Of a DNA stretch of 64,000 nucleotides, positions 38,522 through 39,512 are shown piece after piece. How positions within the stretch are numbered: the first letter of the stretch is position 1; each line of letters opens with the position of its first letter. Source of the DNA: Beijerinckia indica subsp. indica ATCC 9039 (GTDB taxonomy: Bacteria; Pseudomonadota; Alphaproteobacteria; Rhizobiales; Beijerinckiaceae); contig NC_010581.1 in assembly GCF_000019845.1 (NCBI RefSeq), forward strand, positions 2,299,501 through 2,363,500. The letters run 5' to 3'. The notes under the pieces were generated by a model, which ran no database searches, was not told the origin of the DNA, and saw only the letters and a list, made by a program, of their open reading frames with translations. Made by a program: the position numbers and the translations under genes.

Positions 38522-39181
38522 ATGCATCCCTCCACTCTCGCCGATTTTCTCGACAGCGAAGCTGGCGCCGCACTGCGGGCCAGTTTCCACGAGCGAGCGC
38601 TGGCCAATGGCGCTTTGTTTCGGCAAGAAGAGGACGCAGATCAAATTGTTCTGGTGAAACAGGGACGCCTGCGTGTCTATCTCGCTGATCCCGAGCGCGA
38701 ACTGACATTGGTCTATTTGAATGAAGGCGACGTCTTCAGCACACATACGCGAGCACACCTTCAGGCGGTACGGCCGAGTCTGTTGCTTTTAGCCCCCCGC
38801 AAGATCATCGAGCGTGAACTTGGCCACTATCCGGCCCTTCAGGCCGCCGTGATCCGTGTCTTGGCCACTGTCCTCAACCAAACCATGACCCTTCTTGAAG
38901 ACCTGACCTTCCATCAGGTGCGTGGACGCATCGCGCGCTATCTTTTGCGCTGCGCCAAGACACAAAAGGCGCCTATCGAGCCGGGCAGCCTCATTCGTCT
39001 CGATCTCAATGTCGAGGAACTTGCCGCCCTTCTCGGCACGACACGACAAACGGCCTCGACCGAACTCAACGCCATGATCCATGCGGGCGCCATCGCCAGA
39101 CAGGGGCGCAAACATTTCAAGCTCTGCCTTCCGGAGCGCCTCCTGAACTGGGCCAGCGAGGAACCAACGTCAGCCATCTGA
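38522..39181 (+). CDS. cooA: CooA-like CO-sensing transcription activator (CRP/FNR family)
   Basis: A 219-residue CRP/FNR-family protein whose sequence follows Rhodospirillum CooA along its length: GRLRVYLADPERELTLVYLNEGDVF (about 48-72), then THTR with His75 at the place of the heme ligand His77, a long C-helix ending LLEDLTFHQVRGRIA, and the helix-turn-helix LNVEELAALLGTTRQTASTELN (about 162-183). The cysteine that ligates ferric heme in CooA (Cys75) is Ser73 here, and the N-terminus is Met-His-Pro rather than Met-Pro. CooA binds CO through heme and then activates transcription at TGTCA-N6-TGACA sites. One such site lies at the end of this gene, before cowN. There is no clear ribosome site, and pyrE ends 27 bases upstream. 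Confidence 0.8.
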   Translation: MHPSTLADFLDSEAGAALRASFHERALANGALFRQEEDADQIVLVKQGRLRVYLADPERELTLVYLNEGDVFSTHTRAHLQAVRPSLLLLAPRKIIERELGHYPALQAAVIRVLATVLNQTMTLLEDLTFHQVRGRIARYLLRCAKTQKAPIEPGSLIRLDLNVEELAALLGTTRQTASTELNAMIHAGAIARQGRKHFKLCLPERLLNWASEEPTSAI

Positions 39182-39183
39182 CA
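39168..39183 (+). promoter_or_regulatory. CooA-type operator CGTCA-GCCATC-TGACA
   Basis: Nine of ten half-site bases match the CooA consensus TGTCR-N6-YGACA. The centre is 61 bases before the cowN ATG; a start of transcription near 39214-39219 would put it at the position used by CooA-activated promoters (about -38.5 to -43.5). It overlaps the last codons of the cooA-like gene. Confidence 0.55.
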
Positions 39184-39236
39184 GACGGTTAAAAAGCGCA
39201 GGACTAAACCTGTCATTCGCAACCAGGGAGTTGACA

Positions 39237-39512
39237 ATGACAGCGCAAGTCGATCGCTATGTTAGTTTCAAGGGAATTGATTGGGTCGGGAGATCTCGAG
39301 AGATTTTTGCCCGACTGCAATCCCATATTGACCAGGCCAATAGCCCCTTCTGGCCCTATTTCACGCGCCAAAGAAAACTCGCCCATAGCCAGGGGCTGGA
39401 TGATCTGCGCGTGTTGCACAATTATCTGCCAACGCTTCGCGAATTGCTCGAGAATATGGGGGATTTAAAGACCCTGGGCATGCTCGAGGAATTGGAACAG
39501 ATTTGCATGTAG
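39237..39512 (+). CDS. cowN: CowN-like protein sustaining N2 fixation under CO
   Basis: A 91-residue soluble protein matching CowN by length and pattern: DRYVSFKGIDW near the start, a central FWPYFTRQRKLA, then LDDLRVLHNYLPTLRELLE and an acidic leucine-rich end. CowN protects molybdenum nitrogenase from inhibition by carbon monoxide, and in Rhodospirillum its expression depends on the CO sensor CooA. Here a CooA-like gene ends 55 bases upstream with a matching operator between. AGGGAG is 6 bases before the ATG at 39237; a TTG two codons upstream is less likely. No nif gene is in the window. Confidence 0.82.
   Translation: MTAQVDRYVSFKGIDWVGRSREIFARLQSHIDQANSPFWPYFTRQRKLAHSQGLDDLRVLHNYLPTLRELLENMGDLKTLGMLEELEQICM

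Follow-up and report, generated by a model that had tools for sequence, protein, structure and literature searches.

Among the closest described systems is the algH-cooA-cowN group of Gluconacetobacter diazotrophicus, in which cooA and cowN are clustered and a tGTCg-N6-tGACa site lies 60 bp before cowN (PMC8047169). According to the same paper, the CowN protein of this organism lowers the affinity of nitrogenase for CO about tenfold, a NifA site is reported over the CooA site at cowN, and cowN expression rises 30-fold under diazotrophic conditions, with induction by CO observed only under these conditions. A second case is Rubrivivax gelatinosus CBS, where cooA adjoins cowN and where coo genes, rcoM among them, are present; two related strains have cooA and cowN without the genes for the anaerobic CO dehydrogenase (CODH) and the Coo hydrogenase (PMC4257681). 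In Rhodospirillum rubrum the CODH genes are immediately followed by cooA (PMC4257681). The CooA protein of R. rubrum is reported to use Pro2 and Cys75 as heme ligands in the ferric state and His77 once reduced, while for the CooA of Carboxydothermus hydrogenoformans the ligands Ala2 and His82 are reported, with no switch (PMC6955866).

We analysed a stretch of 64,000 nucleotides from Beijerinckia indica subsp. indica ATCC 9039, in the following called the window (G000:C3:2299501-2363500 of a genome with 4,418,616 bases on three contigs), in which a cooA-like gene is followed by cowN (Table 1). The locus resembles that of G. diazotrophicus in the clustering of the two genes and in the site before cowN, but it comprises two genes and not three, algH being the additional one in G. 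diazotrophicus, and no NifA site lies over its CooA site. It shares the adjoining cooA and cowN with R. gelatinosus CBS and the missing CODH genes with the two related strains; strain CBS itself belongs to another genus and carries coo genes, and R. rubrum differs from the window by the genes preceding cooA. In two sister species of G. diazotrophicus (L008, L009) cooA and cowN are, unlike in the window, divergent. The cooA-cowN arrangement is therefore not new as such: it is already known from other nitrogen fixers, and Beijerinckia adds a further case, although in the open-licence literature we found no account of CooA in Beijerinckia or of cowN in Methylocella. We are confident that cooA and cowN together make up a CO-response unit of two genes that serves nitrogen fixation, and they would extend to Beijerinckia and its relatives a CO-protection circuit known from elsewhere.

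Table 1. Positions of the features discussed, counted from the first letter of the window.
Feature	Position	Strand	Remarks
pyrE (orotate phosphoribosyltransferase)	37790..38494	+	27 bp upstream of cooA
cooA-like CRP/FNR-family regulator	38522..39181	+	219 aa; based on ORF, Pfam and PDB matches
Heme-region motif F72-S73-T74-H75	38735-38746	+	by alignment with CooA homologues
Putative CooA box CGTCAGCCATCTGACA, CGTCA-GCCATC-TGACA	39168..39183	+	9/10 half-site bases; overlaps the cooA stop codon
Putative -10-like hexamer TAAACC	39205..39210	+	begins 22 bases past the end of the box
cowN	39237..39512	+	91 aa, ATG start; based on ORF list and profile matches

An earlier note on this DNA, made from the letters alone, had named the two proteins CooA-like and CowN-like, and its coordinates, lengths (219 and 91 residues) and spacing (55 bases from the cooA stop to the cowN ATG) proved to be correct. 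The shorter protein is indeed CowN, as it passes both curated cut-offs, reaching 84 bits for Pfam PF20543 (cut-off 27) and 110.1 bits for the NCBIfam equivalog NF033689 (cut-off 48). Its gene is preceded by AGGGAG, read by eye, six bases 5′ of the ATG, and a TTG six bases upstream of this ATG represents an alternative start. For cooA no obvious ribosome site could be read by eye. The whole genome contains one match each to CowN and to the CooA-like protein, and a tblastn search of the plasmid collection at 1e-5 gave no match to the window's CowN.

The profile searches by which the earlier note had hoped to place both proteins thus settled the case of CowN; they did not name the regulator, because no model called CooA is found among its Pfam and NCBIfam matches. 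Here HTH_Crp_2 is over its Pfam cut-off, cNMP_binding is narrowly under it (26.6 vs 27.5), and all seven NCBIfam matches are far below theirs. The assignment to CooA stands on comparison with proteins of known structure: in a phmmer search against the PDB the CooA chains of R. rubrum (1ft9, 1.2e-33) and C. hydrogenoformans (CooA-1, 2fmy, 2e-31) rank first and second, while the first full-length chain under another name follows at 2.5e-14 (7ets) and the E. coli-type CRP chains lie near 1e-6. The claim that the 219-residue protein is a relative of CooA is therefore upheld.

One could still argue that the regulator is a CRP/FNR protein for some other signal (redox, NO or a nucleotide) and that the operator match described below is accidental. 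The missing CooA-named model would fit this idea, as would the replacement of Cys75 by Ser and the fact that boxes of this kind occur at chance frequency in the window. But the CooA chains lead the PDB matches by a wide margin, the position of His77 is invariant in the homologues, and the box is kept with its spacing in all eight other loci in which cowN is linked to a CooA relative, so that we hold such a different signal to be very improbable.

Besides being the best PDB match, R. rubrum CooA shows a similar recognition-helix stretch, and H75 of the window protein aligns with its His77. This histidine is conserved in 49 out of 49 homologues, the window protein included, and the position of Cys75 is occupied by Ser in 48 and by Ala in one of them; this set, which includes some partial sequences, leans to the window protein's own type, since the latter served as the query. 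Two further alignments took 58 of 59 CowN and 41 of 49 CooA proteins and are the basis of no count given here. With C. hydrogenoformans CooA-1 the window protein has the heme-region stretch GDxFxTHTRA in common. This protein has a Cys at the position of Ser73 in the window protein, though its reported ligands are Ala2 and His82 (PMC6955866), and because of this report we take the Cys75 ligand as not family-defining for CooA. The loss of the cysteine would accordingly be compatible with CO sensing, and from the residues present no thiolate ligand switch is predicted. Where R. rubrum CooA has Cys75 and Pro2, the window protein has Ser and a predicted N-terminal Met-His, and N-termini differ among the homologues in general. 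Heme ligation by the window protein is putative, because Cys75 is replaced and Met-His corresponds neither to Pro2 nor to Ala2. It is tempting to go further and to regard the cowN-linked CooA proteins as a branch of their own among the CO sensors, thiolate-free (FSTH) and serving nitrogenase protection and not CO oxidation, with a T-to-C change in the operator that separates CO from NifA control in this organism; this combined proposal is tentative and in our view somewhat more apt to fail than to hold. A distant CooA relative (33%) adjoining cowN also occurs outside the class, in another member of the phylum (G537, L031/L038), and it shows, read by eye, a Val at the Cys75 position.

For the operator, the earlier note had proposed a match to TGTCR-N6-YGACA at nine out of ten half-site bases, and this count is borne out. 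Taken by itself the box would be weak evidence. The window contains six sites of this quality (at most one mismatch) where 5.87 are expected, so that a window-wide significance of the operator has to be rejected; when the 200 bases preceding cowN are shuffled by dinucleotides, 2.45% of the shuffles attain nine out of ten. With one mismatch or none, the CooA pattern occurs 505 times in the genome and its backward reading 216 times, an excess which may be due to composition or to something else. Because the frequency in the window equals chance, the case for the box rests on its conservation in relatives, and it is this comparison that makes the predicted site convincing.

We compared 18 cowN loci, nine with and nine without a linked CooA relative. 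The linked loci are the window, six from the genome searches (L018, L017, L015, L014, L016, L031) and the two from Gluconacetobacter (L008, L009); the unlinked ones are L011, L012, L013, L025, L026, L027, L028, L030 and L032. Before counting, L029 (CowN match below the cut-off) and L010 (Saprospiraceae, 28% identity) were left out, as were the duplicates L001, L005, L006 and L007, and L033-L038, which represent the same places again. A perfect box lies within 200 bases 5′ of cowN in all eight other linked loci, while none of the nine unlinked loci has a box with one mismatch or less, the best one (L027) showing two; as the linked loci come, by genus labels and record titles, from five and the unlinked ones from seven genera, they do not amount to 18 independent cases, nor the linked ones to nine. 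The trinucleotide GAC directly follows the box in nine out of nine linked loci. Apart from the first base, the 16 bases of the window's box recur in Beijerinckia mobilis, where they are read in another frame of cooA than in the window, while in the two Gluconacetobacter loci the box lies between the divergent genes. Coding constraint therefore fails to explain the box.

The distance to a possible promoter is conserved as well. In seven of the nine linked loci a hexamer starting with TA begins 22 bases past the end of the box, and in the other two it begins one base further on. These -10-like hexamers match TATAAT at three to five of six bases, and the one in the window is poor (three of six). 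In the distant locus from G537 a TATACT begins 22 bases after a perfect box. If the hexamer is the -10 element, this distance would place the centre of the box at about -41.5. This is the position of a class II activator. The geometry of operator and promoter that becomes visible in this way is open to testing.

The window box is the sole imperfect one among the nine linked loci, and this could be read as a sign of decay, in which case the pair would be a silent remnant and cowN would not be used in B. indica. Of all the alternatives we give this one the least credit: both ORFs are intact, CowN lies well over both cut-offs, and PMC8047169 gives the position of the changed base in lower case, as less conserved.

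The same base is of importance for the question of nitrogen control. By construction every perfect TGTCR-N6-YGACA is also a TGT-N10-ACA site of the NifA type, and the perfect boxes of the eight other linked loci can all be read in this way. Because the CooA consensus contains the NifA consensus, the overlaps published for the two kinds of site at cowN need not represent independent sites. At 39168 the window has a C instead of a T, which removes TGT-N10-ACA from the CooA box, so that the Beijerinckia genome offers a natural variant in which the two sites, whose overlap at cowN follows from the consensus sequences, come apart.

This bears on a further explanation, namely that NifA and sigma-54 exert the main control over cowN in response to nitrogen and CooA modulates it, as reported for G. 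diazotrophicus and, to judge from the title of a paper on the regulation of its cowN by NifA and CooA, for R. capsulatus. The 30-fold diazotrophic rise in G. diazotrophicus, with CO induction only then, speaks for it, as does the TGT-N10-ACA reading of the eight related boxes. However, with the C at 39168 neither cowN nor cooA has a TGT-N10-ACA within 400 bases on its 5′ side, and for cowN the single GG-N10-GC over that distance is located 269 bases upstream, inside cooA. The 400 bases upstream of cooA contain neither a perfect CooA box nor a GG-N10-GC core. A TGT-N10-ACA at 37607, 183 bases before pyrE, could serve cooA if pyrE and cooA were co-transcribed, but the window has 11 such sites (5.43 expected), and the 400 bases before pyrE lack GG-N10-GC. 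Patterns of the -24/-12 type with at most two mismatches occur in the window no more often than chance predicts; the region between 37377 and 43575, which holds pyrE, cooA and cowN, has none, whereas the same scan detects two NifA sites and one -24/-12 pattern before the nifH of this genome. Since the NifA-type site in the box is broken and proper NifA and -24/-12 sites near cowN are missing, cowN looks, by its sequence, to be driven by sigma-70 and CooA here. Predominant NifA control is thus unlikely, though less so than the other alternatives, and its probability overlaps with that of the CO-response unit because the two are partly compatible.

The earlier note had further stated that the pair stands alone, without CODH or nif genes. 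As to nif genes this is true for the neighbourhood but not for the genome: nifH (456.3 bits, over the cut-off) is located at C3:533915, about 1.8 Mb from the window, and is followed by an ORF which we named nifD-like by reading. As to CODH, the profile search of the genome gave no match for the Ni-Fe CO dehydrogenase/prismane family, and the aerobic enzyme (coxL) was rejected, as its best match in the genome reaches 23.3 bits against a cut-off of 991.

CowN over the cut-off was found in nine of 149 genomes of the family, five of 385 in a draw from the class, which contains a sixth match below the cut-off, and five of 398 in a draw from the phylum. The window's genome is part of all three draws and one more genome is common to the class and phylum draws, so that 16 cowN genomes result. 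In 15 of them nifH is over the cut-off; the remaining genome is only 78% complete. The catalytic subunit of the Ni-Fe CODH is over the cut-off in none, and weak matches below it occur in three. Within this sample of 16 genomes, cowN without a genomic CODH is the normal condition, and the missing CODH therefore does not mark the special minimal module that the earlier note had seen in it. Seven of the 16 genomes harbour a CooA relative that is close (E value of at most 1.2e-21), and in all seven cooA directly adjoins cowN, with varying upstream neighbours; in the other nine the best CooA match is 4.8e-12 or weaker.

All in all, a CO-defence pair for N2 fixation is, with high probability, the best reading of cooA-cowN. 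CO would bind to the heme of the CooA-like dimer, and the CO-loaded dimer would then bind the box at 39168-39183. From its box, centred near -41.5, the protein may, in the manner of class II activators, recruit the sigma-70 polymerase to the -10 element at 39205, and this recruitment would switch cowN on. By analogy with the G. diazotrophicus protein, CowN would then protect the Mo-nitrogenase, encoded elsewhere in the genome, by lowering the affinity for CO at its active site.

Co-transcription of pyrE and cooA is possible, but pyrE lies outside the conserved unit. A conserved pyrE-cooA operon was rejected, because among the loci searched a pyrE-like stretch before cooA occurs only in B. mobilis (L007 and its duplicate L035), and the loci whose upstream ORFs were inspected have other neighbours there. 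In B. mobilis the pyrE-like gene sits directly before cooA, and at the contig end (L007:2-382) a stretch that reads as transposase-like enters its 3′ end.

A wider CooA regulon was considered as well. The genome contains four distinct exact CooA boxes (C2:88783, C3:348858, C3:529529 and C3:3388068), none of which offers a convincing second target; the surrounding ORFs are mechanical calls and were named by reading. Two of the boxes are inside ORFs, one of these 4.4 kb before nifH. Another occupies the space between two minus-strand ORFs, past the end of one with 231 codons and ahead of one with 84 codons, and the box at C3:3388068 (L050:1769-1784) is placed between divergent alpha/beta-hydrolase-like and LysR-like ORFs. 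The trailing GAC is found in none of the four, unlike in all nine cowN boxes. Within the window, two adjacent ORFs on the minus strand (43546-46260), unlinked to cooA-cowN, resemble flavin-dependent monooxygenases by reading.
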